Below, in pieces: positions 2,288 to 61,030 of a stretch of DNA of 64,000 nt; the first letter of the stretch is position 1, and every line of letters begins with the position of its first letter. Source of the DNA: Lepidostoma basale (taxonomy: Eukaryota; Arthropoda; Insecta; Trichoptera; Lepidostomatidae); contig JAHDVF020000902.1 in NCBI GenBank assembly GCA_022606425.2, positions 558,001 through 622,000 on the forward strand. The letters are read 5' to 3'. Position numbers and translations under genes: made by a program. Under the pieces are notes generated by a model. It was not told where the DNA came from and ran no database searches. It saw nothing but the letters and a program-made list of their open reading frames with translations.

Positions 2288-3045
2288 CTGAAAACAAAAT
2301 ATAAAAAATATGTTAATTATAAATATATCTGCGTTAGGAACAATTTAAAAAGAAACTGTTTTATTCTAAACGATATTTTTTTCAAATATATTTTCAACGC
2401 CATCTGCCGGCAGAAAATAAAACTATTTTCAATGTTATTGTGCAAGATTCATTCAATGCAACTGCTGGCGCCAAGTAAACGTGAAAGTTTTTGACAGTGG
2501 CAAATATTTGGTTTCGCATGTTACCCAGTTGTGCAAAAATGGTGTTTAAAAATCAATAGAGAAAATTACAGCTATATGGTAAACTCATATTTTATTTTCA
2601 ATATTACATAGGTGTTTGTAAAAAATGAAGTGGTTTATTTATTAACAAGTTTTACATATGTAGTATATTTAATAATGTTACACCACAAAGTAGGTGCTTC
2701 ATACGAAAGTATAAAAAGTAGATATTATGTACATAGTTGGCCACCGGTATTTACAACAGATTAAGTTTTTAACAAACAGCTATTCTGACAAATAAATAGT
2801 GAATTAAAAAATAATTGAATCAGATTCCAAATTGTATTAATATACATTGGCAAATAGATTATTATAAATGTAAATTATTGTTTAAGATTTAGTATATTGT
2901 GGACGTTGGACGATCGAAGTGTGCGAGATGTCTATTGGTGGCGATGAGGTTCGCCACCCACCACACCGCGTCTCCCGCTGGAGCAAAAAAAGAGACGGTG
3001 TGATGATTAGTTAATTATATAACAGAATAAATGGGCTTTAGAGGT
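2288..3045. other. intron or 5' flank of the left gene, mostly unassigned
   Basis: AT-rich sequence immediately 5' of the large exon. The only recognisable piece is around 2960-3012, which ends like the 3' terminus of the L-A retrotransposon (GAGACGGTGTGATGATTAG) and is followed by TTAATTA. No exon is visible. Confidence 0.4.
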
Positions 3046-3110
3046 CCGGCTAGTGCTAAGGAATTTTCAAACGACATTTGATAAAGCCTTATCAAGGCTT
3101 AACACGTAAG
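3045..3110. repeat. eroded family-A foldback fragment
   Basis: A left-arm remnant (GCTAAGGAATTTTCAAACG) and a plus-strand hammerhead-like core in which the hairpin GCCTT-ATC-AAGGC survives but GAAAC has become TTAAC. Confidence 0.45.
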
Positions 3111-3639
3111 TCTCCTAAAATATTGTTCAAATATCTAGAAAAATGTAATACCTTTCAAAAATCAATTATGTCATATAAACATTTTTTTTAAATTTCACAT
3201 TGTTTAATTATTTTAGAATATACGTTTTTTCGTGGACATAACTATTAACAGTGTTTTTTTAATCAATTATTATGTGAAAAATTATCTTAACATTTCTATT
3301 ATTTTTAATTATCACACAATTCTGATACTATTTTCATTTATTAATTTATTTACAAAAAGATTAAAGATAATTTAAATCAAAATCATGAAGGGTGTTTCTG
3401 TAATAAATTGTATGATTAGGTCCACTTATGTAATACATATTCAGCCATAAAATAATGTAAACATTTGTGTCTTTAGAGTTATTTAATTTTTTTGTTTTGT
3501 TTATTTATTTAAAAGGTGAATTTAAAAAAAATAATATTAAGAAAGTGAGTTTCCTTAATTAACTCTAACTTTATAAGGTACACTTATTAAAATGAATATT
3601 CTTTCATAACACAATGTTTACATTGAGGTTTTAAGGTTT

Positions 3640-3800
3640 TTGGTTCTGTTTTCTAGACACATTATTATAACTTATGTGAATGACATGTTTCGCCTGTTCA
3701 AGGCATTTTCAAATATCAAGAGTCAGATTAGCCTGTTATTAAACATTTGATCATGTCTTAGATAGGCGAATCACGTCTTTCGTATAATTTATAATTCATT
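3640..3800. mobile_element. family-A foldback element with two hammerhead-like cores
   Basis: The left arm carries the TTTTCTAGA motif and a minus-strand core at about 3682-3712, with stem II GCCT/AGGC, GAAA and the palindrome ACATGT followed by C. The right arm at about 3740-3778 is the plus-strand counterpart, eroded to GAATCACGTC. The arms diverge. Immediately followed by an L-A LINE end. Confidence 0.55.
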
Positions 3801-3951
3801 CGAAGTCGGAATAATCGACATGCGTGCATGGCACGATGTATGAATGTAGGGGAAGCCCGAGAGGTATGCCAGGACAGAGCATTGTGGCGATACATCCTCT
3901 CTGCCTACCCCTCCGAGGAAATGGCGTGATGGTTAGTGAGTTAGTTAGAAA
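3801..3951 (+). mobile_element. L-A non-LTR retrotransposon, 3' end, (TTAG) tail
   Basis: Plus-strand text matches the last about 45 residues of the L-A reverse-transcriptase ORF (R-A-C-M-x-R-C-M-N-V-E-E-A-R-E-V-C pattern, then WR-S-x-L-S-A-Y-P) with frame damage, then GGCGTGATGGTTAG and short TTAG repeats. This is a 5'-truncated dead copy. Confidence 0.75.
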
Positions 3952-4255
3952 ATATGTGCTTTATAAGAGGTGTTATTCAAATTTGAAGACAGTAAAGCAA
4001 ATTTTGTATATTCAACAGGTTCTTGACAGAAAGTTGTGCTATTACAAAACTTGTTTGACGTTTAACGTGATTTTCCAACCGGAGTAAATAACACGTACTT
4101 CCAGAATGGAACATTATGTTCTCGAATATTATATACCATCGTGAATACTTCGACATGTATGTAGACAATGTAAAGTAAGTATAGTCAACAAAATAACACG
4201 GGTCGTTATGTCTCACAATTCCCATTGTGAAATTCACAGACACGAATTGTGTTGA

Positions 4256-5076
4256 GGTGCAGTCGAAAATATTTTCTAGACAGATTATTATTTCACAGAA
4301 TGAATACTCCCAAAATTAAATTGACCACTAAAAAAAAGGAAAAAAAACAGTGTCTGAGATATCTAAAAACATCAATGCAGCCGAAAATATTTTCTAGACA
4401 GATTATTATTTCACAGAATGTATACTCCCAAAATTAAATTGACCACTAAAATAAAGGGAAAAAAACAGTGTCTGAGATATCTAAAAACATCAATGCAGCC
4501 GAAAATATTTTCTAGACAGATTATTATTTCACAGAATGAATACTCCCAAAATTAAATTGACCACTAAAAAAAAGGAAAAAAAAAACAGTGTCTGAGATAT
4601 CTAAAAACATCAATGCAGCCGAAAATATTTTCTAGACAGATTATTATTTCACAGAATGTATACTCCCAAAATTAAATTGACCACTAAAATAAAGGGAAAA
4701 AAACAGTGTCTGAGATATCTAAAAACATCAATGCAGCCGAAAATATTTTCTAGACAGATTATTATTTCACAGAATGAATACTCCCAAAATTAAATTGACC
4801 ACTAAAAAAAAGGAAAAAAAAAACAGTGTCTGAGATATCTAAAAACATCAATGCAGCCGAAAATATTTTCTAGACAGATTATTATTTCACAGAATGTATA
4901 CTCCCAAAATTAAATTGACCACTAAAATAAAGGGAAAAAACAGTGTCTGAGATATCTAAAAACATCAATGCAGCCGAAAATATTTTCTAGACAGATAATT
5001 ATTTCACAGAATGAATACTCCCAAAATTAGATTGAAGGAAAAAAAACAGTGTCTGAGATATCTAAAAACATCAATG
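4256..5076. repeat. approximately 118-bp satellite array, seven units, alternating A/B
   Basis: Unit starts lie at about 4259, 4377, 4495, 4615, 4733, 4853 and 4970 (lengths 118, 118, 120, 118, 120, 117, 107). Odd units read GAATGAATACTCC and have ACTAAAAAAAAGG; even units read GAATGTATACTCC and have ACTAAAATAAAGGG. The true repeat is therefore a dimer of about 237 bp. The last unit has an internal deletion and extra substitutions. No CRISPR-like spacers occur. Confidence 0.95.
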
Positions 5077-5305
5077 TTAACATTGTGTTATTAATGATTA
5101 TCCATATATATAAGTGCACCTGAGATAGTTAAAAAAATGTATTAAAATTCCCCACTTCATAATATAAATTTATAAAAACGTTACTATTTAAATAAATAAA
5201 TTTAATGGAATGAAATATTTTACACAAATAAGACAAAATTTTAATAAACTTACGAAATTCGAAAACTTTGTTTAATCCAATATTTAATAAAAAAAATAGT
5301 TAAAA

Positions 5306-5350
5306 AACACGACATGATTCGCAGGATACCTCCATCTTCAGGTGTAAAAA
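5306..5350 (-). ncRNA. hammerhead-like motif, family E, single arm
   Basis: On the minus strand CTGAAGA is followed by T and a hairpin region, then GAAT instead of GAAA, the palindrome CATG, and GTC. Stem I is ACAC paired with GTGT. The core is damaged at one conserved A. Confidence 0.45.
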
Positions 5351-5689
5351 TATACTGTAATAAAAACTTAACAAAGAAAGACTAATAAAAAACGCATTTA
5401 AAATTCAATACAATAATTCAAATTTTAAAATTAACCTGTGCAATAATATTTGTTGTAAGTAGACACTAAGAATTATTTTTTAACAGTAATAACTAATAAA
5501 TAATATTAAATAATAATAATACGTGATGATAATATAAAAAAATTGTAATATAAAAAATATATTATAAATTTTTATACCAAAAAATCTAAAACAAAAGTTC
5601 TTAGTCATGTTAATTGTAAAAAATTAAAATTAAATGTATATTTATTTTTATATTTTGTTTAAAATATGTGTTAAGTTTTTAATCACTCG

Positions 5690-5800
5690 TTTTTTTCGAC
5701 CGATTTCGGCATCTCGCAGCCATCTTCTGATAAAACCAAACTTCTGGTGAAGATCAGAAGATGGCAGTGAGGTACCGAAACCGATTGATACTAAAAAAAA
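5690..5800. mobile_element. foldback with two hammerhead-like cores (family F)
   Basis: Divergent arms: minus core at about 5696-5738 (CAGAAGA, hairpin GGC/GCC, GAAATCGGTC) and plus core at about 5753-5797 (CAGAAGA, then CCGAAACCGATT). The U of CUGA is changed to A in both arms, so activity is doubtful. Confidence 0.45.
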
Positions 5801-6863: not shown

Positions 6864-7319
6864 GTGGTAAGTTTTAATATAACTTTTTTTTGCAACTTAA
6901 AAAAACACGTCAAAAGAAAAAAAAATTCAAAGGGAGTTGATTTTTTTTGCTCATTTTAAATTACATTTTCTCCTTTAAAAATGATAAATTATTATTCCGA
7001 AACATCTTAATATTTTTGTCAAAAAATGACATATTTTATGTTTATAACGTTATTTCGCAATATGGTGAAACATTTGATGATCGAAAAATGTGTGGTAAGT
7101 TTTATACGTTGCAACTTAAAAAAACACATGTCAAAAGAAAAAAATGTTTTCAAAGGGTGATGTTTTTTTTCTTTGTTCTTTTTAATTTATGTTTTCTCCT
7201 TTAAAACTGATCAATTGTAATTCAGAAACATCTTAATGATTTTGTCAAAAAAAAATTACATATTTTATGTCTATAACGTTATTTCGCAATATGGTGAAAC
7301 ATTTGATGATCGAAAAAAA
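6864..7319. repeat. tandem duplication, two units of about 228 bp
   Basis: Both units begin GTGGTAAGTTTT (6864 and 7092) and share GCAACTTAAAAAAACAC, a T-rich tract, TTTTCTCCTTTAAAA, GAAACATCTTAAT and ACATTTGATGATCGAAAAA. They have diverged by substitutions and small indels. The unit matches nothing else in the window. Confidence 0.85.
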
Positions 7320-8290: not shown

Positions 8291-8387
8291 AGGAAAATGA
8301 AGATTAGAGTTACATTGTTTCATATCGTTTTTTATTTGAGACACTAATCAGTTATAATGTTTCTCTTCTGTATTCGCCTTCACTTTG

Positions 8388-8648
8388 AATAAATATAGTT
8401 ACACTTTGTATTACAATACTTTTTATTTTTACTGAACTCAGACATGTTTCGGTTACAAGTAACCCTTATCAATGTATACAATTTTAACAGTCCATTTAGT
8501 CTGCAGTCTCCATTTATTATATGAGTGACTGCTCTGTTTTATTTGACTGTTAAAATTGTAAACATTAATAAAGGTTACTTGTAACCGAAACATGTCTGAG
8601 TTCAGTAAAAAAAAAATTGTTGTAATACAAAGTGTAACTTTATTTATT
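8388..8648. mobile_element. family-C foldback with long arms and hammerhead-like cores
   Basis: Arms of about 80 bases (AGTTACACTTTGTATTACAA on the left, its inverse on the right) flank a spacer. Both arms carry the core hairpin GGTTAC-TT-GTAACC, GAAA, the palindrome ACATGT, then C. Minus core lies at about 8431-8475, plus core at about 8562-8605. The CTGANGA box is eroded to TTGATAA and TTAATAA. Confidence 0.75.
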
Positions 8649-8698
8649 CAAAAAGTTATAATGTTGATCAACCCCAATATAATTCATATCTTTGTCAG

Positions 8699-9112: not shown

Positions 9113-9450
9113 TTCTTCTTCTTCTTCTTCTTCTTTTGATAGATCTGACGATCTGTGACACAGAAATCATATCTCGTCGGATGATGAGATCCAGCTGTCC
9201 CTCCATCTCTTAGGCGGTCTTCCAGGTGGGCGGTGTCCGGAAGGGATTTCATAGGCGGCTGTATACGCGAGTCTGTCACCATTCATTCGGGCTACATGGT
9301 CCCTCCAGTATCTTCTTCTGGATCTACTCCACTGAACGATATCCTCTATTTCGCAGGTTTTCCTTATGTCTGCGTTGCGGACACGATCTCGGAGGGTTTT
9401 TCCAGTAATTGATCTTAGGACCTTCATCTCCGATGTTCTAAGTAGTCCCT
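9113..9450 (-). pseudogene. L-C LINE, reverse-transcriptase C-terminus with GAA tail
   Basis: Open for about 86 residues from 9427 to 9167: SITGKTLRDRVRNADIR, then W-R-D-H-V-A-R-M and a G-R-P-P-K-R-W motif, which are hallmarks of an endonuclease/reverse-transcriptase LINE C-terminus. After the stop comes about 40 bases of 3' end, then tandem GAA (CTT on the plus strand, 9113-9136). A near-identical copy is at 35890-36172. Confidence 0.75.
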
Positions 9451-9459
9451 TGGTTCTTG

Positions 9460-9605
9460 TTTATATAAACTGTTAAATTAAAAAACTCTGTTTTATGTGT
9501 CACAAATTTATTTTTATTTTACGCGACAGCTGTTTCGTCAACCTATGTTGACATCATCAGGTGTTACAGTAATATATCAAATGTCAAATTTTCGTGATTT
9601 TTGAA
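9460..9605 (-). mobile_element. family-B element, single arm with well-preserved hammerhead-like core
   Basis: Core at 9521-9566 on the minus strand: CTGATGA, extra T, hairpin GTCAAC-ATAG-GTTGAC, GAAA, palindrome ACAGCTGT, C, then GCGT that pairs with AACAC except for one A-C mismatch. The outer arm (AAACTGTTAAATTAAAAAAC) is shared with the copies at 25111 and 47440. Confidence 0.75.
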
Positions 9606-10947: not shown

Positions 10948-11219
10948 ATGTAAAGAGTATTTATTGTTTCATGAACAATGATGCAAAACTCCATATTAAA
11001 TTATTAATATGTATGAAAAACGATAGTTTCTATGAGTTTTGTTATAATATTCAGGAATGACATGTTTCGCCCTTCTAAGGCATTTTCAAAATGTCTTAAA
11101 AAATGCAATTTAAATTTTGTGAAAATATCTTAGAAGGGCGAAACATGTCATACATAAATATTATAATAATACTCCTTGAAAACTATCGTTTTTCATACAT
11201 ATTAATAATGTAAAGAGTA
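10948..11219. mobile_element. family-A foldback inserted in a SINE, 12-bp target duplication
   Basis: ATGTAAAGAGTA occurs at 10948-10959 and again at 11208-11219, bracketing the element. The left arm starts with TTATTGTTTCATGAACAAT and carries a minus core at about 11055-11090; the right arm carries a plus core at about 11119-11152 (hairpin, GAAA, ACATGT, C). The right arm lacks the outermost 40 bases present on the left, so the element is asymmetric. Confidence 0.85.
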
Positions 11220-12359: not shown

Positions 12360-12560
12360 TTAAGGCGTTAACACTGTGGAACTCCATAGTGATGGATTAT
12401 TTATGAAATAATACACTGTTTGTTTCCACTTTTAATTTTATTTTTCTCAACATATTTCGAATGTTTTACTCCTTCATCATCGGGATAACGATATAAACTA
12501 AGTTTTAAAGAAAAATAAACTTAAAAGTGGAAAAAACAGTGTTTAATTCATAAATAATAA
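12360..12560. mobile_element. family-E foldback, eroded
   Basis: Outer arms share CACTTTTAA...TTATTTTT with inverse AAAATAAACTTAAAAGTGG. A minus-strand core at about 12446-12492 retains GATGAAGGAG, CGAAA and ATATGTTGAG but has lost the tight hairpin. Confidence 0.55.
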
Positions 12561-16129: not shown

Positions 16130-16342
16130 ATTTATTGTTTCTTGAACAATTATGTAAAACTCCATATTAAATGATTAATACGAATGAAAACATCAGTTTT
16201 CTAGAAGTTTTATTATATTTTTTGGGAATGACATGTTTTGCGCTTATAAGGCATTATCAAATGTATTAATGTTCATTCGATTATATGTATTAATGTTCAT
16301 TTGATTATCAAATGTATTAATTTTCATTCGTATTAATATTCT
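16130..16342. mobile_element. family-A foldback, right core lost
   Basis: Left arm TTATTGTTTCTTGAACAAT...TTTTCTAGAAGTTTTATTAT with a minus core at about 16225-16262. The right side keeps only the outer TTTTCATTCGTATTAAT; the GTATTAATGTTCATT word is locally repeated. Confidence 0.65.
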
Positions 16343-16814: not shown

Positions 16815-17042
16815 ATAATGGTGTTGAACTCCATATTAAGTAAACAATACAATTAATTACGTATATTTTCTTGATGTTTTATTATTTTTTGGGGCTTGTC
16901 ATGTTTCGCCTTGCTAAGGCAATTTCAAATGTTTATCACTTTCATTTGAAAATGCCTTAGCATGGCGAAACCTGTCAATCCCATAAAATCTAATAAATCT
17001 TCTAGAAAACAGACTTTTTTTTCATATTAATTTAATAATAAA
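16815..17042. mobile_element. family-A foldback with both cores
   Basis: Minus core about 16896-16930 and plus core about 16942-16980: hairpin GCCTTAGC-AAGGC or its variant, GAAAC, then TGTC. The arms are separated by a tiny spacer and diverge. Confidence 0.75.
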
Positions 17043-20384: not shown

Positions 20385-20600
20385 ATATTTACATGATTCA
20401 AAACGTATGTTTTCTAGAAGTTTATTTTATATGGGATTGACCTGTTTCACCTAGCTAAGGTTTTGTCAAATGTGATATTTGAGAATGTTCAGGAACAGAC
20501 ATGTCATTCTCATAAAAAATGTTCCAGAAAACAGATGTTTTCTTTTAGATTAATATTTTTTTGATATGGAATTTTACACTATTGTGAACAATGATGTTAA
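20385..20600. mobile_element. family-A foldback, eroded right arm
   Basis: Left arm TTTTCTAGAAGTTTATTTTA with minus core at about 20434-20472 (ACCTAGCTAAGGT hairpin). The right arm keeps ACATGTCATTCTC and CCAGAAAACAGA. Confidence 0.65.
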
Positions 20601-21560: not shown

Positions 21561-22223
21561 TTCCACAGTGGTATCACTTTAAGTTTATCTAAAATTAAAA
21601 AATCTAATAAAAAAATAAAAAATCACTATTATGAAATTTCCCAGTATTTAAGCATTAAGATTACATATGTACCTATATAAAATACACTATAAATATTTTT
21701 TTATGCTCAAACGGAGACACATTAATAATTTTTTATTAACAAATAGGTTACTCTAAATAAAATAAAATTATATAATTAGATGTTGATATGTATGGTTAGT
21801 TCATAAATTAAGTAGGTAAACATCTATATCCATAAATAATTTTCTCTTACATAGTGGGTATTGAAATTACGAGTATTTGCGTGTTAAGTGTATACTTACG
21901 TTTTATGGATATTATTTATTAAAAGCCATAAACATTTCCAATCGCCATTTCCGATTTACCAATATTAGTACTTATGTACGTTTCGACAAAATAAATATCT
22001 GGAATAGGCTATACGTAAAGATGTGTCATAGCAAAACTTTCGTCATTCGATTTCCAGATCAATTTATGCGATTAGTTGAAAGAAAAATCGATAACGAAAG
22101 GTCATTCGTCATCATTTTGTGTTTTGGAATCATATTTAATAACTTCACGACAATTTTTATAATTTTCAAAAAAAATGTTTCAAGCTATATAATGTCCTTC
22201 TTAGTGTAAAATTGTTTACCTTC

Positions 22224-22266
22224 ACACATTGAAGAAGAACATGTAAAGTCCGAAATATGTTTGTGA
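22224..22266 (+). ncRNA. hammerhead-like motif, family E, single arm
   Basis: CACA then TTGAAGA and A, a weak hairpin, CCGAAA, TATGTT, then TGTG. Stem I CACA/TGTG is intact, but C3 is T and stem III is imperfect. Confidence 0.4.
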
Positions 22267-22504
22267 AAAATGTTGTGAAAATAAAATGTTTTTCAAAAGA
22301 TATTTAGCAGTGGTTTCATATAACTTTCTTTCTAGAAATTAGAACCCGGTAGTTTATGAAATTAAATTTTATTCTATCAAAATAATACCTATAGTGTTTT
22401 TATTATTATATATTCTCAGTCAAAATCATTTCAAAAATGTTAAATATAGGCTCGTTGACATAAAAAAACTTGAGTTAACGCCCTGAGATGTCGAAAATAT
22501 ATTT

Positions 22505-22829: not shown

Positions 22830-22965
22830 TTATTCTTTATTAACGCCAACTGGTTTTATACGACCAGTTAACCGGTTCACATAATATTCCGTTACCCTGA
22901 CAAAGCTCCGGCGGGAGCGAAACCGGTTGGTGTTAATAACGAATAATCGGGTTATGTTCAAATTA
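22830..22965. mobile_element. family-D foldback with one strong hammerhead-like core
   Basis: Arms ATTCTTTATTAACGCCAACT and inverse. Plus core 22891-22935: CTGACAA, extra A, perfect stem II GCTCC/GGAGC, GAAA, palindrome ACCGGT, T, and stem I ACC/GGT. One core G (G8) is A. The left core is eroded to GGTTAACTGG. Confidence 0.75.
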
Positions 22966-22969
22966 TATA

Positions 22970-23820
22970 AGTGTATTATTATTATTTAATAAGTAAGTGT
23001 TACCATGACAGTTTTAGAAAATTTACTATTCACGTCCCACATACATAAACAAAAACCATAACCTTTTTTTTGCATTGTTTATTTAGATTTATTTAATGTT
23101 TATAAAAAATCAAAACAATACGTATAACGACAATTCAATTGCCTTATATGCTTTGCTTTGCTCTTTAACTTTGGTACATATACGAGTACATCCTCATACG
23201 AAAACACATTAGATTTTTGACACATTTTATAATTCCCTAGCAAAGCTAAATATGTCACTTCTATATAATACAAAAAGAAAGCATTCTAAAAAAAAGATTT
23301 TCTTCAATATTAAATACGTAATACGGAATTTCACATATTTTTTCTAGACATAATAAATATCTTACATTGAAGTAAAAAAATTATAGAAACATATACTGAA
23401 AACAAATTCAATGACGGGAATAAAATCATATGAATGGATTATTAATACGTATAATTAACACGGTGAAATGATATTCGAAATATCAAAGAAATATTAACAA
23501 TGATGTGTATGAAACCATGCTATAGACACCTTATAAAAATCGTACTAAAAAAAACAAAGAACATCTCATATATATTTTCATTTGATATTGCTGTTCACAT
23601 TCATTACAATCTCCACGGGTTGTTAGTGAAATAAAAAGTACATTTCATTTGTTTCAGTCGATCACTTTTACAGTGGCGAATCATTTACGAGGATTGTATG
23701 ACAATCGAATAATATAATAATAAATCGTATTAACGCATGTCTTAATTTATTTTACGTATTGAAACTGTTGAGATCTCATTTCTAATGCAGATAAATCGAC
23801 ACTTAGTTACTTTAAAAAAA
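22970..23820. other. unassigned AT-rich stretch
   Basis: No gene or repeat recognised in about 0.85 kb. Confidence 0.4.
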
Positions 23821-25070: not shown

Positions 25071-25110
25071 CCATATATAACATTTAATCAACATACGAGT
25101 AGTTCCACAT

Positions 25111-25416
25111 AATAAACTGTTAAATTATAAAACCCTGTTTTTTATGTATCACATTTTTTTTTCGCGATAGCTGTTTTGTCAACCTATGTTGACATCATCA
25201 GGTGTTACAATAATATATCAACTGTTTAATTTTCCTTTTTTTTTAAATCTCCACGGATTGTTATCGTGTATTTTCGAAAAATCACGAAAATTTAACAGTT
25301 GATATATTATTGTTACACCTGATGATGTCAACAAAGGTTCACGAAACAGCTGTCGCGAAAAATAAAAATAAAGTTGTGATGCTTAAAAACGAAGTTTTAT
25401 GATTTAACAGTTTATT
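25111..25416. mobile_element. family-B foldback, complete, two hammerhead-like cores
   Basis: Ends AATAAACTGTTAAAT and inverse. Minus core 25161-25210 and plus core 25311-25358. The plus core has CTGATGA, extra T, GTCAAC with a partly mutated partner strand, GAAA, palindrome ACAGCTGT, C. Arms exceed 100 bases and pair along most of their length. This is the best full-length family-B copy. Confidence 0.85.
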
Positions 25417-25435
25417 AATATGTACAATACAAAAC

Positions 25436-29129: not shown

Positions 29130-29360
29130 AACATTTATTGTTTCAAAAACAATTATCTAAAACTCCATATAAATTAATTGATTTGAATGAAAAAGTATGT
29201 TTTCTATAAATTTTATTCTATTTTTTGGGAATGACATGTATCACCTTGCTAAGGAATTATTAAATATTTGATCATGATTTAGCGAAGCGAAACATGTCAT
29301 TCCCATAAAATATAAGAAAACTTCTAGAAAACAGACGTTTTAAATTTTTTTTAATTATGG
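29130..29360. mobile_element. family-A foldback with both cores
   Basis: Minus core about 29228-29265 and plus core about 29266-29303 (TTTGATCA, hairpin, GAAACATGTC). Outer arms TTTTCTATAAATTTTATTCT and inverse CTTCTAGAAAACAGACG. Confidence 0.75.
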
Positions 29361-31670: not shown

Positions 31671-31860
31671 GCGTTTACACTGTTGAATAAGAATATTAAA
31701 CATTGTGTAATCCACTTATTTTATTCAATTATTCACAACATGTTTTAGAGGGGATCTCCTCTATCCTTAGGTTTAAATATTTACACCCAAGGATGATCAC
31801 CTCCGAAAAATGTTGTGAAATATATTTTTACTTTGTAAAAATATTTAATTAAGTAAGTTG
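31670..31860. mobile_element. family-E foldback with two cores
   Basis: Minus core about 31738-31780 (CTAAGGATAGAGGAGATCCC side; ACATGTTGTG) and plus core about 31782-31822 (CCAAGGATGATCACCTCCGA). Stem I TTCACAACA pairs across. CTGA has become CCAA or CTAA. Confidence 0.55.
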
Positions 31861-34560: not shown

Positions 34561-34844
34561 ACAAAGTTAAAGCTAGTTTATTAATATATGTTTTTATGTG
34601 TTAACATGTTTTTTTAGTCATCTTTTCGATATGTATACATCATTAATATGTGCATTTCTTTCAAATTAAAGTAGAGTCAACAAAATATTATGAAAATTAT
34701 TGAAATTCCATTATATGTGTTCCATGTAAACTCCTGGAAACCGAAGACTCGAATAAAGTAAACAAAATAAATTTCTTATTAATTATGGTACATGGCCGAT
34801 CTCACGTTTCAATAATGTTTTTTCTTCTTAATTTACATTTGGAA

Positions 34845-35125
34845 TTTGAAACTCAAAGCATATTTTCCACTACAGTTTATTCAATATATTTATAAAATAA
34901 TAATAAAAATATTAAAACACGACAATGTTTCGGAGAAGACCTCCACCTTCAGGTGTAATATTACACCAGAAGATGAAGGTCACCTCCGAAATATTATCGT
35001 ATTTTAATATTTTAATTATTGTTTTATAAAGATATTGAATGAAATTAAGTAAAAAATATACAGTAAAGTATTTCAAATTCCAATTTACAGTAGAATTCCA
35101 TAGTGTAAACGCTTTAACTTTCAAT
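34845..35125. mobile_element. family-E foldback with good hammerhead-like cores
   Basis: Minus core 34916-34960: CTGAAGG, T, hairpin GGAG-GTCTT-CTCC, GAAA, ACATTGT, C, and perfect stem I ACAC/GTGT. Plus core 34960-35003: CAGAAGA, weaker hairpin, GAAATATTATC. The two cores abut at the centre. Confidence 0.75.
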
Positions 35126-35890
35126 ATCTTCTTAATTTCTTTTCAAAATGTGTTTCGCAAAACGAAACACATCACTAAATTAAATTCAAATTAAAACCTC
35201 ATTTTCAAGGATATTACAAATATTAAATTAGAACATTACCATTCTATACAAGGCATTTAATGCCTTACATTTGCATTGATTTTTTTTTGACATAATGATT
35301 TATACTAAAAAGAAGATTTGTTACAAGATGAACCAGTAATTTGGTATTAAAACGATTTAATTTTGTTGGGTAATATGAAAAGTATATTTCCCAAATATCG
35401 TATTAAAACACCAAATTAATTATGGTAATTGCTTAATATAAGCTGAAAAATTTTTAATTAATTTTTTAATATCGCAAATGCATCCAATCTTTTTTTTTCC
35501 TATCTAAGTTCATTCTTGTTTTTTAAGTTGATTTCTCTTGATCCATACTGGTCTATAATAATAAAATGATCGGTGTATATACACATAAATATTGATATGT
35601 CTCCTTTCTTCCATCGCTAATCTTTCTCTCCGAAATCCATATATGGCAATGTTTCACCAATCAGCGATCATTACTGGTTTTAAGCCAAGTTTTTTTATAG
35701 TTATCTAATAAAAAGCGCTTTAGAGAAACCAATATATTTTGGCGGGGTGAAGCTGATAGAAACACGGATCATGATAAACACACTATATTCTAGAACGTGG
35801 TTTTGAATTTAGAAAATGAAACAAACGTTCGTTGGAAAAATATTATCCATCGTACAGGGTGACTAGAAAATATTTCTTATTTTTCTTATA
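35126..35890. other. unassigned stretch with a small hairpin
   Basis: GTGTTTCGCAAAACGAAACAC (about 35148-35168) is a short palindrome. The rest is unassigned. Confidence 0.4.
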
Positions 35891-40004: not shown

Positions 40005-40060
40005 GTTTTGTAATCCTGGCGAAACCTCGATGGGAGCGAAACCGGTTGGTTCTAAAAAAA
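40005..40060 (+). ncRNA. hammerhead-like motif, family D, single arm
   Basis: CCTGGCGA, then a weaker hairpin (CTC/GAG), GAAA, palindrome ACCGGT, T, GGT. A6 is changed to G. Confidence 0.5.
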
Positions 40061-40197
40061 CAAAGAAAGGGGTGTTAAAACAAAAATATGTATGGTAAGT
40101 GCTTAAAATTATTTTCAATTTAATTATTACATATTTCATTATTTTCGCCAAACACTATGATACTTCAATAATATTGTATATTTATATGAAACACTGC

Positions 40198-40390
40198 TCT
40201 TGTACGTATCACAATTTATTTATTTGAATAAGTCGTGATATATGTTTCACCAACCTATGTTTGCATTATCGGGTGTTGATATTTACACCTGATGATGCCA
40301 ACATAGGCTGGCGAAACAGCTGTCGCGACATACTCGTGAAAATAAATTGTGATACTTACAAAAACAGTTCATGCTTCAAATTTAAACAAT
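40198..40390. mobile_element. family-B foldback with two cores
   Basis: Minus core 40233-40280 and plus core 40283-40330. The plus core is intact: CTGATGA, T, GCCA...TGGC hairpin, GAAA, ACAGCTGT, C. A TACTCGTG word interrupts the arm right after the core, where relatives read GCGAAAAATAAA. Confidence 0.8.
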
Positions 40391-41640: not shown

Positions 41641-41922
41641 TTGCAGTCTAAAAACTTGCTAACTTTGGTAGACTACATTTGCAGCTCATATTTGAATATA
41701 TTTTATAAACATTTTTCATCACTCCACTTCTAAATTGTACGCTATAGAATATTATGATGAACTGAGACTATTTGTCTGAGCCGGAAAAAATAGCCAACCG
41801 CATTTGGAGATCTTTTTTTACTGCAAAAAAGCCAACCGCACAATAGTTGTTAATATATTAAACTTATTATACTAACCACGATAATAAGTTTAATATATTA
41901 ACCACTATTGTGCGGTTGGCTT
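41641..41922. mobile_element. piggyBac-type element ends, with a near-perfect 42-bp palindrome
   Basis: Arms 41829-41870 and 41881-41922 match with one mismatch. They contain AGCCAACCGCACAATAGT next to TTAA, which resembles the CCCCTATTGTGC end of the MITE at 17261. ACTACATTTGCAGCTCATAT inside is also shared with that MITE. Confidence 0.65.
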
Positions 41923-42424
41923 ATTATAGCTATCGTACAAATATTTTCAACTTTGAAAATTGTATTGTATCACAAAGTTAGACCGACATATCACGGAGTT
42001 AACTAAGTTTGCTGCACCTCAATTAAATTTAGAGTTGTTAATAACGTTGATCAAAATAAAACACCCAGACTTGCATATCATTAATCAAAATACATTCATT
42101 TCCATTACGTTGTGTAACTGGAGAGCAATTTCTTTTCGTAAATCTTTGATATTCAAAAGTGTGAGAAACGATTTTATCAGAGTATTGCGAGAAAAGTGAG
42201 ATGTTACGCCGCGCCGATTCAGGAATACTTCTAACAATGGATGCTTCTAATGACCTTTTGCTCTTCGATAGCAGAAGGTACAAAATGACAAGTAAACTAT
42301 TATTTAATAACAAACATATGAGAAACAATACAACTTTGTGAAGCAATAATGTTTTAAAACAAAAAACAAACAATTAAATTTAAAAGAGTCTATCGTGATA
42401 GCACCGCTATTCATACTAAAAATA

Positions 42425-44989: not shown

Positions 44990-45205
44990 TTAGAAATTTT
45001 AAAAATCTCATCAGCCATCTGTCATCCAGTGCTGAACGTAGGCCTCTCCCAAAGCACGCCACCGCCCCCTATCCATTGCCGCTCCCATCCATCCATGTCC
45101 AGCAATCCTCTTCAGATCGTCGTTCCAGCGGGCAGGGGGTCATCCAACTATGTGGAATCCTGTACGCGGTCTCCACTCCAGAACCCGTCTCTCCCGAAAT
45201 TTTAA
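44990..45205 (-). mobile_element. dispersed LINE 3' region (L-I)
   Basis: Plus strand CATCAGCCATCTGTCATCCA, CTGAACGTAGGCCTCTCCCA, then CGTCGTTCCAGCGGGCAGGG. This is a phrase order I recognise from widespread insect LINE-derived repeats. From memory, no clade assigned. Confidence 0.6.
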
Positions 45206-45229
45206 AAATATAAATAAAAATAAAAAATA

Positions 45230-45435
45230 TGAAAACTTTGTATTTAACCACGGTATGGTTATTATAATTCACACCAACTAGTTTCGCTTGGACCCAAGCT
45301 TCATCATGGCAGTAAATCAACCAATATTGTTGTTATACTGCCCTTATTAAGGTCCAAAGGAAACTAGTTGCCATTAGTTATAATAAACAAACCGTGGTTA
45401 AATACAAAGTTTTTAAAATTATTTTATGTTTTTTT
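45230..45435. mobile_element. family-D foldback
   Basis: Arms GTATTTAACCACGGTATGGT and inverse. Minus core 45271-45313: ATGATGA, A, perfect stem II GCTTGG-GT-CCAAGC, GAAA, palindrome ACTAGT, T, GGTG. The plus core at 45337-45373 is eroded. Confidence 0.75.
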
Positions 45436-45574
45436 AATGTTTATTATTCTTTTTAAGTCTTTGGTTTTCTAAACTGGACATCGGACGATAATATAAGGAC
45501 GATATGATATGCTCGCAATTTATGATAATATTATTCATATCATGCCATTTTTATCATTTAATAAAAAAAAACAG

Positions 45575-46589: not shown

Positions 46590-47015
46590 TACAACATTTT
46601 GAATGTATACAAATACTTGAATGAATACTGGATTTTTATTTACCCATTGCGGGTTATCAATTCAAGGATTAATTTTATCTCAATAGAGACGAAGATGCAA
46701 ACCGGAAACTGAATATGGTGATCGAGGTGTTTACAGGACTTATGACCTGTCATTGGTTGGGTTAAGCGCACGCTTTATGTAATTACAACATTCCCCATTT
46801 CACCTTTCTTATGACCATCATGTCTGACAAATTTTTGAAAGTTGTACATTTGTTAATATCCAACACCACAATTCACATGTCAGTTTCAATTTACAGACCA
46901 GCGCCATCTATGAAGATTAGATTAGATAAAATTAATCCTTGAATTGATAACCCGCAATGGGTAAATAAAATCCAGTATTCGTCTACAAGCATTTGTATAC
47001 ATTCAAAATGTTGTA
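46590..47015. mobile_element. MITE with about 95-bp terminal inverted repeats
   Basis: Left end TACAACATTTTGAATGTATA, right end its inverse. The inverted repeats run inward through ACTGGATTTT and GGGTTATCAATTCAAGGATT with few mismatches. 426 bases, non-coding. Another copy at 32717-32985. Confidence 0.9.
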
Positions 47016-47019: not shown

Positions 47020-47190
47020 ATAATGTTTTATTTGTTTCGAAGATTTATGGTATATTATGTTTTTATTTTAAGTATCATTAATTTTGTATTATAGTCCATT
47101 GTTTTGGCCGAAACACTATGATACTCTAACATTATAAACTGTTAAATTAAAAATCTTTGACTTGGTGGTTGAACATATTTAACACTTAAT
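47020..47190. repeat. direct repeat, right copy
   Basis: Matches 46386-46560 from TAATGTTTTATTTGTTTCGA to TTGGTGGTTGAACATATTT, with small indels. Confidence 0.85.
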
Positions 47191-47194
47191 TAAA

Positions 47195-47435
47195 CATTTT
47201 TTGTACTTGGTATACAACCACTTTATTTGTGTGGATGAGGGCCTACCGGTTTCGCTCTATGCGAGCTTCCTCAGAGCTTTACACATACTGTATGTGTACT
47301 ATGTACATACTGTATGTATTTATGTGTACTATTACAGTATTTGTAAAGCCCTGAGGAAACTCACATAGAGCGAAACCGGTAGGCCCCGATCCTCACAAAT
47401 AAAGTGGTTGTTTATCAAGTACAAACAGTGTTTAA
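47195..47435. mobile_element. family-D/GGTA foldback with two strong hammerhead-like cores
   Basis: Arms TTAAACA...TACTTGGTATACAACCACTTT and inverse. Minus core 47238-47283: CTGAGGA, A, GCTC...GAGC, GAAA, ACCGGT, A. Plus core 47342-47386: CTGAGGA, hairpin CTC/GAG, GAAA, ACCGGT, A, and exact stem I GCC/GGC. The predicted cleavage base is A. Confidence 0.85.
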
Positions 47436-47665
47436 TTAAATGTTAAAAAAACTTTGTTTTATGCATCACAATTATATTTTTATTTTACGCGACAGCTGTT
47501 TTGTCAATCTGTGTTGACATCATCAGGTATTACAATATTATATCAAATGTCAAATTTTCGTATAATATTATTTATATTATACATGAAACAGATACCGCGT
47601 AAAATAAAAATACAATTGTGATACATAAAGCAAAGTTTTTTAAATTTAACAGTTTTTTAATTTTG
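47436..47665. mobile_element. family-B foldback, right core deleted
   Basis: Minus core 47487-47532: CTGATGA, T, GTCAAC-ACAG-ATTGAC, then AAAAC in place of GAAAC (one G lost), CAGCTGTC. The right arm keeps GAAACAGATACCGCGTAAAA, so the hairpin is lost. Confidence 0.7.
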
Positions 47666-48654: not shown

Positions 48655-48745
48655 GTGAATTTTTACATTGAAGATGGTTATGTCATAACCGAAACATGTC
48701 TGCGTCAAGTGTAATAAAGTTTTGTTTAAATACTAAGTGCACTTA
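48655..48745 (+). ncRNA. hammerhead-like motif, family C, single arm
   Basis: Core 48667-48706: TTGAAGA, T, perfect stem GGTTAT-GTC-ATAACC, GAAA, palindrome ACATGT, C. Only C3 deviates. Confidence 0.6.
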
Positions 48746-48823
48746 TATTTTATTTGTCTTTTTCTTTTTAAAATACGAGTACTTTGTCTATACAACACTA
48801 AATTTTTAAAAAAATATATTGAA

Positions 48824-48865
48824 TATCAGACGTGTTTCGGATAACCCGGTCCTTCCTCAGTGATA
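48824..48865 (-). ncRNA. well-preserved hammerhead-like motif, single arm
   Basis: Minus strand: stem I TATCA/TGATA (5 pairs, perfect), CTGAGGA, extra A, hairpin GGA...TCC with an eight-base loop, GAAA, ACACGT, C. All hammerhead core positions are satisfied apart from the extra A. Confidence 0.75.
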
Positions 48866-48876
48866 TTATAAAGATA

Positions 48877-50629: not shown

Positions 50630-50880
50630 ATGTTCAAGGCGTTAACACAGTGGAATTAATATCACTGTGTTTATTCCACTTTTATTTATTAAATATTTTT
50701 AACAGAACAAAAATATTAATCACAACATGTTTCGAAGGTGACCTCTTCCATCCTCAGGTGTATATACTCGTATTTACACCTGAGGGTAGACTAGGTTACC
50801 TACGAAACATGTTGTGATTATTATACTTATAATGTCAAAATATTTAATAAATAATACTTACGTGTTATTAATAATATTGA
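50630..50880. mobile_element. family-E foldback with two hammerhead-like cores
   Basis: Minus core 50719-50764: CTGAGGA, T, GAAG...CTTC hairpin, GAAA, palindrome ACATGT, T, GTG; stem I ACAC with TGTG. Plus core 50772-50820: CTGAGGG, TAGGT...ACCTA, CGAAA, ACATGT, T. The octamer TACTCGTA sits exactly at the centre. Confidence 0.8.
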
Positions 50881-53788: not shown

Positions 53789-54200
53789 TCAATGTGTTAT
53801 TATTGGTCTTACACATGCTTTATAGATTCTCATCTTACTCTTAATGGCCATGTCTTTGTTATTCCATATTGTGGATTTTAGAGCGCCAGAGGTTGCAGCT
53901 GCCTTGTTTACTTGAGCTTGTATTTCTTTCCGCAAATCAGCTCCTCTCACCAGGTCTATGCCTAGATACTTGAAGGTTCTGACCTGTTCTATGGGTTGAT
54001 TTTCTATAACCAGGTTACATGTTTTGGGTGTTTTGCAAAAGGTCATACATTTTGTTTTTTCGATAGAGATCGTCATGTTGTATTTCTTATAGGCATGATG
54101 TAGTCTGTCTAGCACTTTTTTTAAGTCAGTATTGTTAGTTAAATTGTCAATGTGGTCTGTTATGCAGACGATGCTATAATCATAGGTGAAAACCAAATAT
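53789..54200 (-). pseudogene. LINE reverse-transcriptase palm/thumb fragment (L-C-like)
   Basis: Open about 130 codons: YSIVCITDHIDNLTNN (where the catalytic Y-A-D-D-x should be, here damaged to D-Y-S-I), CMTFCKTPK, VRTFKYLGIDLVRGADLRKE, then STIWNNKDMAIKSKMRIYKA and C-V-R-P-I-I-T-H. It covers the active-site loop to the thumb. The missing Asp pair means no catalysis. Confidence 0.75.
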
Positions 54201-54234
54201 GTGATCCACGAAAATATTATAAAGTTAAAATAAA

Positions 54235-54435
54235 CTTAATTAAATACTTTTTGTACTTGGTATACAACCACTTTATTTGTGAGGATAAGAGCCTACCGGT
54301 TTCTCTCTATGTAAGCTTCTTCAGGACTTTACACATACACAAAAAAATTGTTGTGTACCAAGATCAAAAAGTGTTTAATAAGGTGTTAAATATGTCCAAC
54401 CACCAAGTTGTGGCTTCTTATCAAAGTTTAAAAAA
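54235..54435. mobile_element. family-D/GGTA foldback, right core lost
   Basis: Minus core 54290-54335: CTGAAGA, A, GCTT...GAG, AGAAA, ACCGGT, A, GGC. Left arm TACTTGGTATACAACCACTT; the right arm GTACCAAGATCAAAAAGTGT continues into ATGTCCAACCACCAAGT, the outer repeat of 46386. Confidence 0.65.
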
Positions 54436-55020: not shown

Positions 55021-55066
55021 TAACCATTGTATACAGCATGAACTTTATTAAAAAAATTAATTAAAA

Positions 55067-55106
55067 AACAAACATGTTTCGGACACAGAAGCCCTTCATC
55101 AGTGTT
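55067..55106 (-). ncRNA. well-preserved hammerhead-like motif, single arm
   Basis: Minus strand: stem I AACA/TGTT, CTGATGA, extra A, stem GG(G)...(T)CC, GAAA, palindrome ACATGT, T. All core positions agree. Confidence 0.7.
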
Positions 55107-55109
55107 ATA

Positions 55110-57194: not shown

Positions 57195-57345
57195 TTTTTA
57201 ATAAACCGGTTTCGCTCTCACCAAGCTTCGTCAGGATAACAAAACAAACTGACTGCTGTTCCCTCTTGACTGATTGTTGATAAACTGTTACTCTGACGAA
57301 GCTATGGTGGGAGCAAAGGCGATTGGTTTTAATAAAACAAATAAG
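57195..57345. mobile_element. family-D foldback with two cores
   Basis: Minus core 57201-57240: CTGACGA, A, GCTTGGTGAGAGC hairpin (GCT/AGC), GAAA, ACCGGT, T. Plus core 57287-57330: CTGACGA, A, GCTATGGTGGGAGC, then AAAGGCGATT (eroded). Divergent. Confidence 0.7.
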
Positions 57346-57793: not shown

Positions 57794-57852
57794 AATAATA
57801 ATAATGATAATAATTATAATAATAATAGTAATAATAATAATAATAACAACAA
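57794..57852. repeat. (AAT)n microsatellite
   Basis: Interrupted AAT repeats over about 58 bases. Confidence 0.9.
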
Positions 57853-58448: not shown

Positions 58449-58489
58449 AATGAACTATTTAAACACGTTTTTCTTTTATTATAAACTTG

Positions 58490-58620: not shown

Positions 58621-58707
58621 GTGTACAATGTGAACTGAAAAGTTCAGAAAACGGTGTTATCATTAAATAAGAAATCGACATATATATTTTGGTTTAAACC
58701 AAAATAT

Positions 58708-59215
58708 TACAACAACAACAAACCAACACGCCGTTTCCCCGCATGGGTAGGCAAAGAGAATGGACCGCCACGCTACTCTATCCTGACACACCTCTCTAGC
58801 TTTCTCCACATTCATACAACGAGTCATAGACGCATGTCGATTCTTTCGACTTCTTACATGACCAACCTTTAAAATTTGATTAATTTGGTTATGCCATGTT
58901 TTCTTCGATCTACCTCGACCCTTACTCCATTTACATCGTTATCGTATATTTTCTCAACCATTATTTCTCCATCCATGCGCTCCTTATGTCCAACGCAGCG
59001 GTCCTTTCATAATTGTATTCATAATACCTTCTGCCGCTCTATATTCCTTTCTTATATCAGCATTTAAAATTTTATCATACATCGTTCTACCACACATACG
59101 TCTAAGGAACCTCATGTCTACCGCATTTATTCTGCTCTCATCTTTCTTCTGCCAGTTTCATCTTTCGCTTCCAAACATTAGGGTTGGGACCATAACTCCA
59201 TTGAGAACGGCTATT
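58708..59215 (-). pseudogene. L-A LINE reverse-transcriptase C-terminus, (TTG) tail
   Basis: ACAACAACAAACC tail, then text from the C-terminus back through R-R-N-R-x-A-S-M-T-R, D-Q-I equivalents, D-R-C-V-G-H-K-E-R-M-D-G-E, Y-D-K-I-L-N-A-D-I-R-K-E, S-x-F-L-R-R-M-C-G and to N-G-V-M-V-P-T-L-M near 59205. About 500 bases: the second-longest L-A copy. Confidence 0.8.
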
Positions 59216-59219
59216 TTCG

Positions 59220-60060
59220 AAGTAAATGATATTTTTATTTCTAAAAAAAATGTTTTAACGCTCAAGAGTTGGTTCAGTAGATAGATTGACTTATTATCTA
59301 CGAGACATAAATTTAAATCTAGATACAATATTTTTATGTTATGAGTTATTGTGTTTTCTCAATTTGTTTTAAATGGCGATTAAGACAGTGCAATTATGCA
59401 CTATACAGAACTATGTCAAATATTTTTATCTTTTTTATCTATACAATAGCGGCTATAGCCTCCTTGAAGACTCGTTACATTTTTCGCGATTCAACGCTTT
59501 CTACACCCAAATGTAAATGCCATACATGCAATAGACAATAGTCATGTCGATTAATTAATATACGCAATAACAAAATTCATCCTTGAGCAGTTGAAAATCA
59601 AATTATATTTAAATAGTCCATTGTTTTGGCCGATATTTAGAAAATTTTGAAATTTTAAAGGCCAAAAAATGTAAACTAAATGTTATAAATAACCAAATTC
59701 CTTCTTATTCCCCATTAGTTAGTATATAGTACAATAAAAACTTTCCCCCTGTACAATCTTGCTAAAAAATTATAATATTACCTTCAACTTTTGTCACCTT
59801 TCCTATTAATGTAATCTATGTACTTCTTGTTATTATTTTTCGTTTTTAATTTATTATGTTTCATTGTTTTTGACTCTATACTATGTGTATTTGTCCCTTC
59901 TAATTATTGTTTATTATTATTATTTTATTATTATAATTTTCTACCTTTAATATTTTCTCCTATAAACAGTAACTAACCGTTCTTTAAATTAAAATATTTA
60001 GGTACCTAACTCAATTTCAGCAAGAACTTCTAAAATATATCAAAGAAATTATTCAAATTG
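59220..60060. other. unassigned AT-rich stretch
   Basis: Contains a fragment of the 46386 repeat (TAGTCCATTGTTTTGGCCGA near 59617). Nothing else recognised. Confidence 0.4.
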
Positions 60061-60084
60061 ACTTAGGATCAAATACACAAAGAT

Positions 60085-60230
60085 TCAAAAAATTACGAAA
60101 ATTTGACATTTGATATATATTTTTGTAGCACCTGATGATGTCAACATTGGTTGATGAAACAGCTGTCGTAAAGTAAAATAAATACAATTTGTGATATAAA
60201 ACAAAATTTTTGAATTAACAGCTATAAAAT
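60085..60230 (+). mobile_element. family-B element, single arm with near-intact hammerhead-like core
   Basis: Core 60126-60172: CACCTGATGA, T, GTCAAC-ATT-GGTTGAT, GAAA, ACAGCTGT, C. Outer arm AGTAAAATAAATACAATTTG. Inner part (AATTTGACATTTGATATAT) as in 9570-9600. Confidence 0.75.
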
Positions 60231-60404
60231 TATATTTAATATACACCTAAAACATAATTAAAATTGTTTTTATTTTTTAATGTTCTAAAAATCGTTATTG
60301 TTACTTTAACAGTGATGCATACGAAATAACGTATGTCCGTACTAAATAAAATAATAATAACAGTGATGCATACTTAATACCATATGTCCATACTTAATAA
60401 TGAA

Positions 60405-61030
60405 ATGAAATGAAAACGCCTATTTTTTAGAAGTTTTATTATATTTGATGGGAATGAATGTGGAGTCCCCACGAAACAGGATACTCCCTCGTGTTAGAGG
60501 GTACACAAAAGATTTCTGAGATATCTCTACATGAGATGGTGAATTTACAATCCGTGGCTTTAACCCACCGCATTTCTCTTGGGCATGCTGGAAACAAATA
60601 GTTTACAGATAAGGAGGGATGGGTTCACACTTTCATTTCTTCTAATTAGGGGATTCTTTGAGAACTCCGTCATCTTGGAGGGTACCCATTTTTATGTTCC
60701 GGATGGTGGGGAGAGCAATCAAACTGCTGAACATGATCGCTTCAGAGATCGACGTCTTTAATATTAGTGAAAGTACGCACATAAGGTAAACACTCTTGGC
60801 TTAAGAGAGAATCTTGTATTCCTAAAATCGAACCATCTCTCATGCGTTCCTGATATTTTACCTGTTCTCAAAAATGCCTTGAACTGTTCACATGTTTGAA
60901 ATATCCTTTGAGAGAAATAAACTGATTTAATTTGATTAGGTGTTTCGCTTTGCTAAGCAATTATCAAATGTGCCTTACATATTTTATAATACCTTCTAGA
61001 AAAGCGACATTCTCCTTCATATAAATTCAT
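60405..61030. mobile_element. family-A foldback split by a LINE 3' end
   Basis: Left part 60405-60456 (TTTTTTAGAAGTTTTATTAT, TGGGAATGA) and right part about 60940-61025 (TGTTTCGCTTTGCTAAGCAA, CTTCTAGAAAAGCGACATTC) are continuous in the family consensus. The intervening 480 bases are the LINE below. Confidence 0.75.
60457..60940 (+). mobile_element. LINE 3' region with GATTT tail
   Basis: TGGAGTCCCCACGAAACAGG at the start, AATAAACTGATTTAATTTGA at the end. Same terminus as 41346 and (inverted) 12073. No long frame: 3' UTR or heavily decayed end, probably Jockey-group by memory of its tail. Confidence 0.6.

Follow-up and report, generated by a model that had tools for sequence, protein, structure and literature searches.

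The stretch of DNA analysed here (the window; 64 kb, C1541:558001-622000, contig JAHDVF020000902.1 of the 769-Mb genome of the trichopteran Lepidostoma basale) contains many short inverted repeats, and a first-pass annotation had reported that at least six families of these foldbacks share a core resembling the hammerhead ribozyme (HHR). This raises the question of what such foldbacks are and how their arms came to carry the same outward-facing core. Our results suggest that they are probably short, mostly non-coding insertions of several families of Penelope-like elements (PLEs), each of which would arise when the 3' ends of two PLE RNAs are copied, head to head, into the two sides of one break.

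A core shared by several foldback families

A strict canonical descriptor, in which stem II directly follows CTGANGA, found no core in the window, and this failure exposed an extra nucleotide at that place. With up to two unpaired residues tolerated before stem II (one was the rule), there were seven exact cores against 0.1 expected from ten order-2 Markov simulations, 17 against 1.7 at one mismatch and 60 against 35 at two mismatches, the last being a modest excess. We seeded a covariance model (R1) with 23 of the 29 listed window cores (alignment A1), and it gave 36 matches in the window at E<0.1, namely the 23 seeds and 13 others, several of them partner arms or relatives of seeds, and 39 matches at E<1. 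The six cores left out of A1, eroded or with their alignment register off (B7, D2, D4, D6, G3 and H2), were all recovered by R1 at E values of 0.0012 to 1.5. A hammerhead-like core above chance frequency is thus confirmed as common to the foldback families; the 40-50 copies previously counted by eye are slightly too many, although a fair figure once eroded copies are included. The four intervals singled out in the first-pass annotation correspond to R1 matches 48822-48867(-), 55064-55109(-), 47344-47388(+) and 9518-9567(-), all in the seed and with E values of 2.4e-5 or better, and the stem II pairs then quoted (GTCAAC/GTTGAC, GCTCC/GGAGC, GCTTGG/CCAAGC and GGTTAT/ATAACC) are present. In a negative control of 148 kb of viral contigs, chosen because part of the core pattern is present in them, R1 gave one match at E<0.1; pattern scans of viral contigs gave 0, 15 and 0 loci, and 15 is about chance by a rough estimate. 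The Rfam hammerhead models match nothing in the window even at E up to 10, a threshold at which Rfam yielded 21 matches, all under the curated cut-offs and the best of them to microRNA families sitting on the palindromes. Genome-wide, the sole site above the Rfam Hammerhead_1 cut-off among 73 scored of 94533 candidates is G000:C844:789780-789896(-).

In the 23 window cores, 80.2% of the cells in the hammerhead stems are paired, against 48.7% after shuffling and 31-43% when the partners are slid by one to three columns. Stem I, which was not a criterion in choosing the cores, pairs in 73.9% of cells, and the pair adjoining the cut site holds in 22 of the 23. In stem II, 85-86% of the cells are paired and all five pairs show two-sided changes, and this covariation supports the selection for structure that had been suspected from a few stem II sequences. 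A larger alignment (A2; 85 distinct cores, from 136 matches in the 37 sources searched) gave 80.6% paired cells against 51.0%, a figure that leans towards structure because the matches came from a structure-aware model, and stems I and II both covary. The contact between positions 3 and 8 is free of that lean, because the model does not treat these positions as paired: 56 of the distinct cores have C-G there, 14 have U-A and 2 have U-G, while 10 are unpaired and 3 gapped. Because the U-A cases fall mostly in family G, they may represent one or two events.

The cores have the CUGANGA/GAAA nucleotides, the stems I and II and the NUH cut site of a type I hammerhead, and residue 17 is other than G (H17) in 84 of the 85. 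Stem II does not directly follow A9 as in the textbook form, since an extra unpaired residue, mostly T or A, intervenes in 84/85, a count made on an alignment fitted to a model already containing that column; the layout first described (CTGANGA, hairpin, GAAA, TH) stands in its core and cut site, with stem II displaced by one nucleotide. Two departures mark single families: U3-A8 in family G, and A6 changed to U in a young PLE family considered below, whose core reads CTGTCGA in 57 of 58 A2 copies (L021-L063). One partial copy, L043, reads TGATGA.

The palindromic character of the short stem III was also borne out, since it is self-complementary, with G-U allowed, in 71 of the 85 distinct cores (ACATGT, ACCGGT, ACAGCTGT, ACTAGT and variants). 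Within one RNA it could form at most one or two pairs. Full self-complementarity is kept across different stem III sequences, beyond what a single RNA could use, and this indicates pairing between two RNAs; it points to a complete stem III and junction that would need two molecules. With ViennaRNA, homodimers were more stable than two monomers for the five cores tried (5/5), and none of the five minimum-energy dimers contained a complete hammerhead, so that the calculation gives no support for the fold; in the dimer of 55064-55109 both stem II hairpins are kept, the palindrome is paired and stem I is absent. On the whole, the comparison of sequences supports hammerhead-like cores of the small PLE kind, in which stems I and II are kept and stem III is only a palindrome.

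Penelope-like carriers of the core

The assignment of the foldbacks to PLEs starts from the genomic locus L024, whose coding part was classed by a Pfam scan and a homologue search. There, a 747-aa open reading frame (ORF) with reverse transcriptase (RT; RVT_1, E=1.2e-13) and GIY-YIG (E=4.8e-5) domains lies between inverted arms of 456 nt, 99% complementary, which run on into the ORF and each carry an outward HHR. The arms of its relatives L026 and L027, both truncated, exceed 1.1 kb, and their complementarity rounds to 100%, with one difference in 266 in L026. The nearest named relatives of the L024 protein come from the moth genus Phthorimaea (43-45%), and unnamed metagenome proteins reach 59%. 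A search of the genome for GIY-YIG gave 62 matches, with 150 of 541 candidates scored. Three of these (L016, L017 and L018, loci of 3.2 kb) contain no HHR match and show no similarity to the PLE protein; in L016 and L018 the GIY-YIG match is part of an open frame some 620 aa long.

Window families D, B2 and G are PLE insertions, tied directly to GIY-YIG copies. Positions 5244-5561 (family D type) have counterparts on the 3' side of GIY-YIG in L030 and L031, two loci that share 46% and 40% identity, respectively, with L024 in their GIY-YIG parts. Nine of 19 further loci also match this interval downstream of their GIY-YIG copies, and a tenth does so over a shorter piece. For family B2, the sequence at 22896-22992 is matched at 77% by DNA that follows the GIY-YIG copy in L092; for family G, DNA that follows the copy in L095 shows 88% identity to 16165-16264. 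R1 found 12 sites at E<0.1 in the 19 further loci, nine in the orientation of the GIY-YIG frame and three opposite, as judged by reading. Families A, B, C, E, F and H showed no tie to a coding copy among the loci searched, and generic PLE protein probes gave no convincing match to a PLE coding remnant in the window. The link to PLEs that had been suggested is therefore supported, both by the ORF between inverted HHR arms and by the position of D, B2 and G downstream of GIY-YIG copies. The arms are also not simply unrelated, as they had been called: wherever the ends of window families can be placed, the order is HHR, some 53-128 nt and element end, and three of the families trace to PLEs.

Geometry of a young family and formation of the foldbacks

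A 300-nt query from the 3' end of the young PLE family gave 47 matches, with the best 40 of 1429 candidates scored, and we studied 40 loci: 36 of the 37 among those matches and four from the GIY-YIG list. The near-duplicate of L024 (L025) was left out of the count, and where a locus had more than two pieces (L036, L041, L045, L047, L050 and L055, six in all), two were paired by hand and the others omitted. Complete foldbacks make up 31 of the 40 loci. In all 31 a minus-strand piece is followed by a plus-strand piece, 3' ends outward (head to head), and in all 31 one outer end is long, or tailed, and the other short. The long end, on the left in 15, reaches about reference position 2795 and the short one stops at about 2747, some 109 and 61 nt downstream of the cut site at 2686. 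Among the 32 loci fetched solely by DNA match (L032-L063) there are 23 foldbacks, and the rule is obeyed in 23/23. An exact target-site duplication (TSD) of 9-14 bp (median 12), a length that may have gained one or two bases shared by chance with the element end, flanks 30 of the 31, and L024, the only one lacking it, lies within a (TA)n tract; only 5.6% of 930 swapped-flank controls score 8 or more, against 30/31 true flanks. The TSDs (28 of the 30) are 86% A+T. Inverted terminal pieces, one tail and a short TSD, which serve to recognise PLE insertions, are found in 31, 31 and 30 of the 31, respectively.

The inner ends are variable. All 31 foldbacks have distinct pairs of truncation points, the difference between the arms ranging from 1 to 2294 nt, and the two points lie within 2 nt of each other in 3 of 25. 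Truncation points cluster at reference 2375-2420, provisionally, because the query favoured arms reaching past about 2454. At the junctions of 25 simple cases the arms overlap in six and abut in one, and 18 hold 6-280 nt of filler. Arms within one insertion differ by 0.73% on average (25 elements, with L023 an outlier at 4.1%) and insertions differ from each other by 1.20% (1200 comparisons), values that lie too near each other for divergence to distinguish a single donor RNA from a pair.

From this geometry we infer that two RNAs were copied into the two sides of one break. Each foldback holds the same 3' end of the RNA twice, in head-to-head orientation and with the 3' ends outward. To produce it, the PLE protein would cut AT-rich DNA with a stagger of about 12 bp, and both 3' ends thus exposed would serve as primers on PLE RNA. 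Reverse transcription would begin at either of two start sites that lie inside the RNA, about 47-48 nt from each other and just downstream of the hammerhead, the distal start being used on one side (tailed end) and the proximal start on the other (short end). Each complementary DNA (cDNA) would extend back past the hammerhead and end prematurely, independently of the other, before the two were joined at the centre. The product, rc(X)-X between direct repeats, would carry an outward-facing hammerhead in each arm. Since the two arms cover one and the same 3' region, a single RNA could be the template of both only by being copied twice; two templates are favoured because the ends are always unequal and the truncations differ so widely. 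The activities required (cutting and extending both strands, internal start) are taken from the Anolis PLE and not from this insect, so that priming on both strands would hold here by analogy. In fact, the purified Anolis protein (PAc) cuts and extends both target strands and initiates reverse transcription internally on the RNA, at two neighbouring sites; the optional genomic tail of 30-40 bp is the interval from one to the other (PMC11167929). The hammerhead mutants of PAc still insert (PMC11167929), and any function of the ribozyme in the present elements is no more than an inference. A tentative and rather doubtful idea is that the PLE hammerhead fold serves, at least partly, as an RNA pairing device: the palindromic stem III would join two template RNAs, like a dimer-initiation site, and present one RNA to each half of a dimeric PLE protein, both strands being primed together from the distal and the proximal start, with cleavage secondary. 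This would explain why the young, uniform family seems to have lost A6 and kept the stems and the palindrome.

The same plan is seen in the window and in other families. Four window foldbacks (I6, I3, I12 and I4) have direct flanking repeats and unequal ends (Table 1), and I1 has a longer left end, as read by eye. A script run on family A in the window and the loci searched found 12 outward pairs, nine with one tail, and its listed close pairs are outward in five of five, counted by eye. The pairs of family B are outward in 24/24 among 40 scored loci, none being inward and the other loci listing one arm (by eye).

Several observations weigh against our interpretation. Within the window, 3 of 16 pairs score 12 or more in the TSD test against 12 of 240 swapped controls; this is weak alone, and the case rests on the young family. 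The other window pairs show no clear duplication, and the best matches of I1 and I13 in the test fell inside the arms, the TSDs given for them being read by eye. The tail rule fails in 3 of the 12 family A pairs (L050 and window I2 and I13), for which the script found no tail, that of I13 seeming to lie beyond the nested I1. The young loci are not a random draw, 36 coming from the 40 best scored of 1429 candidates and four from the GIY-YIG list, and L026-L029 could not fail to be pairs because they were picked for two close GIY-YIG matches. Further element pieces in L041, L042, L045, L047 and L053 were kept out of the pairing. Eight of the 40 young loci are single arms, with a short end in L033, L049 and L051 and a long end in L035, L042, L046, L053 and L063, and L037 is interrupted by a contig edge. 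The filler at 18 of the 25 junctions is unexplained, and the ribozyme of the young family may be inactive because of the U at core position 6. To these must be added the arms of family B, which mostly share one 5' start, about 18 nt upstream of C3, and so would also fit a palindrome copied whole.

This last point would suit palindromic non-autonomous units, like miniature inverted-repeat transposable elements (MITEs), that are transcribed and copied whole, the foldback being inherited and not made anew at each insertion. We consider this origin unlikely, because the 31 young foldbacks all differ in their truncation pair and one would not expect the copying of an entire palindrome to yield one tailed and one untailed end each time. 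Self-priming, in which an antisense PLE transcript or cDNA folds at a palindrome and copies itself to give a head-to-head repeat from one molecule, appears improbable as well. It has been proposed for rotifer PLEs, on an antisense template, in passages of PMC3846280, and it agrees with the head-to-head geometry, with the palindromes at some junctions (such as GTGTAATATTACAC at the centre of window I3) and with the three young foldbacks truncated within 2 nt. However, by our reasoning the outer ends formed from one folded molecule should be equal and the truncation points nearly so, whereas the outer ends are unequal in 31/31, the truncations differ by as much as 2294 nt and filler occupies most junctions.

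Non-LTR retrozymes, tandem units of 170-400 nt made into circular RNA by their ribozymes, were the other affiliation raised by the first-pass annotation. Short AT-rich animal repeats do contain type I hammerheads (passages of PMC7229834), but here the close pairs are inverted and not tandem monomers, the window tandem arrays 4258-5035 and 6890-7317 hold no R1 match at E<1 and a third (16253-16335, 24-nt unit) does no more than reach into the margin of one core, so that this link is not supported and is very improbable. Terminal-inverted-repeat DNA transposons containing the motif by chance would fit the long inverted arms and the fairly constant TSD length, and are hardly credible given unequal outer ends in 31/31 young foldbacks, arms that continue into an RT and GIY-YIG ORF and no transposase noticed in the window, where no family scan for one was made.

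Related elements and other features of the window

Hammerheads in PLEs, a weak stem III, inverted ends and tails are already known. According to passages of PMC3846280, the Pen PLEs of A. vaga have inverted pseudo-long terminal repeats (pLTRs), a tail on one of them and TSDs of 8-10 bp. Like these elements and PAc of Anolis (PMC11167929), the elements described here have RT followed by GIY-YIG, inverted terminal pieces, AT-rich targets and an optional tail on one inverted end, and as in PAc the RT start site lies a little downstream of the HHR. Unlike them, many copies here are foldbacks of two 3' ends, with arms down to about 100 nt and in many families, with one tail per insertion without exception in 31 and TSDs of about 12 instead of 8-10 bp. 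Direct pLTR pairs are also described for those PLEs. Small type I PLE hammerheads lacking helix III are described in passages of PMC7761336 and PMC6155905, which cite Cervera and de la Pena (2014) and Lunse, Weinberg and Breaker (2017). The present cores resemble them in the minimal stem III, the possible dimer action and the association with PLEs and, as far as those descriptions go, differ in the U3-A8 core of one family and in the change of A6 to U in the youngest one, and perhaps in the nucleotide between A9 and stem II. Dimer action is described or suggested for newt and PLE hammerheads in passages of PMC7229834 and PMC7761336. The satellite hammerheads of newt and axolotl also have a weak palindromic stem III and cleave better as dimers, but they sit in tandem satellite repeats and the present cores in inverted PLE insertions (passages of PMC7229834).

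We found no paper in the open-access literature joining hammerhead, Penelope and Lepidoptera; hammerhead ribozyme, foldback and transposon together returned only a review that does not connect them, and none of the matches listed there for combinations of Penelope-like, twin priming and hammerhead concerned twin priming. The passages on Penelope in studies of the monarch butterfly and Drosophila virilis (PMC8848866, PMC12910113) mention no hammerhead. As far as we can tell, the novelty lies in the rule of one long and one short end (31/31) and the argument it provides against self-priming, in the occurrence of short foldbacks in many families, and in two core variants, U3-A8 and the changed A6 of a young family. 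They touch on questions raised in passages of PMC3846280, PMC7761336 and PMC11167929, namely how PLEs insert, their frequent inversion with a one-sided tail and the role of the hammerhead. The long and short ends around duplications of about 12 bp separate two-template priming from self-priming, and PLE insertion would account for a group of foldbacks in an insect that look like MITEs and have cores which, in the window, escape the Rfam hammerhead models.

Table 1. Hammerhead-like cores, foldbacks and target-site duplications in the window, by family.
Feature	Position	Strand	Details
HHR core, family A, single arm	9518..9567	-	R1 E 2.1e-7
Foldback I2, family A	25110..25417	.	outward HHR cores 25159-25208(-), 25312-25361(+); both ends short; R1, inverted repeat, tail script
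Foldback I4, family A	40130..40386	.	HHR 40282-40331(+); left arm eroded (R1 E 8); ends ~107 and 62 nt from cut sites
TSD of I4	40116-40129/40387-40400		13/14 bp
Foldback I13, family A	47093..47656	.	split by nested insertion I1; HHR 47484-47533(-); R1
Left end of I13 with family A tail	about 47093-47132		read by eye
Candidate TSD of I13, TTAATTTTGT	47078-47087/47657-47666		10 bp; read by eye
HHR core, family A, single arm	60125..60174	+	R1 E 5.6e-5
Foldback I1, family B	47160..47445	.	inserted in end of I13; outward HHR 47237-47281(-), 47344-47388(+); R1
TSD of I1	47149-47159/47446-47456		10/11 bp; by eye against uninterrupted family A end 9440-9510
Family B copy	54234..54338	-	HHR 54287-54331(-); no partner HHR seen; 90% identical to 47184-47288; R1 E 1.2e-5
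HHR core, family B2	22890..22935	+	R1 E 5.5e-7
HHR core, family B2	40009..40054	+	R1 E 2.5e-5
Foldback I5	45203..45443	.	HHR 45269-45314(-); R1
Foldback	57197..57331	.	HHR 57197-57241(-), eroded partner 57286-57331(+); R1 E 6.4e-6 and 1.5
Foldback I6, family C	8362..8653	.	HHR 8434-8479(-), 8558-8603(+); ends 79 and 57 nt from cut sites
TSD of I6	8350-8361/8654-8665		12/12 bp
HHR core, family C	48661..48707	+	R1 E 1e-6
Foldback I3, family D	34835..35126	.	HHR 34914-34959(-), 34960-35005(+); ends 86 and 128 nt from cut sites
TSD of I3	34823-34834/35127-35138		12/12 bp
Foldback I10, family D	50697..50840	.	HHR 50717-50764(-), 50773-50820(+); R1
Foldback, family D	31730..31821	.	HHR 31730-31777(-), eroded partner 31780-31821(+); R1 E 1.6e-4 and 0.93
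PLE 3' end, family D type	5244..5561	-	HHR 5304-5348(-); R1 E 1.5e-4
Foldback, family H	5691..5793	.	HHR 5691-5736(-), 5748-5793(+); R1
HHR core, family E	55064..55109	-	R1 E 7.8e-7
HHR core, family E	48822..48867	-	stem I ATATCA/TGATAT; R1 E 6.8e-6
Foldback I12, family G	10960..11202	.	HHR 11052-11096(-), 11112-11156(+); ends 99 and 53 nt from cut sites
Left core of I12	11052-11096	-	U3-A8
TSD of I12	10943-10959/11203-11219		16/17 bp
HHR core, family G	16223..16267	-	R1 E 0.0014
Foldback, family G	16891..16983	.	HHR 16891-16935(-), 16940-16983(+); R1 E 0.079 and 0.0035
Foldback, family G	29190..29341	.	HHR 29261-29305(+), eroded partner 29226-29270(-); R1 E 0.014 and 1.7
HHR core, family G	3675..3719	-	R1 E 3e-5
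HHR core, family G	20432..20476	-	R1 E 0.0089
HHR core, family F	12442..12490	-	R1 E 0.059
HHR core, no family given	22222..22268	+	R1 E 0.0027

Some further features of the window were noted. A reverse transcriptase fragment at 53789-54235, which we read as of the long interspersed nuclear element (LINE) type, ends where the family B copy at 54234 starts. The tandem array at 4258-5035 has a 118-bp unit in 6.6 copies and lies within an outer inverted pair, 3566-3635/5062-5131. Two inverted repeats have no HHR match: one at 46590-47015, with 47-nt arms that are 100% complementary (46634-46680/46924-46970), and a short palindrome at 41826-41925, 96% complementary. Finally, an open frame of 637 aa at 431-2344(-) is perhaps a host exon.

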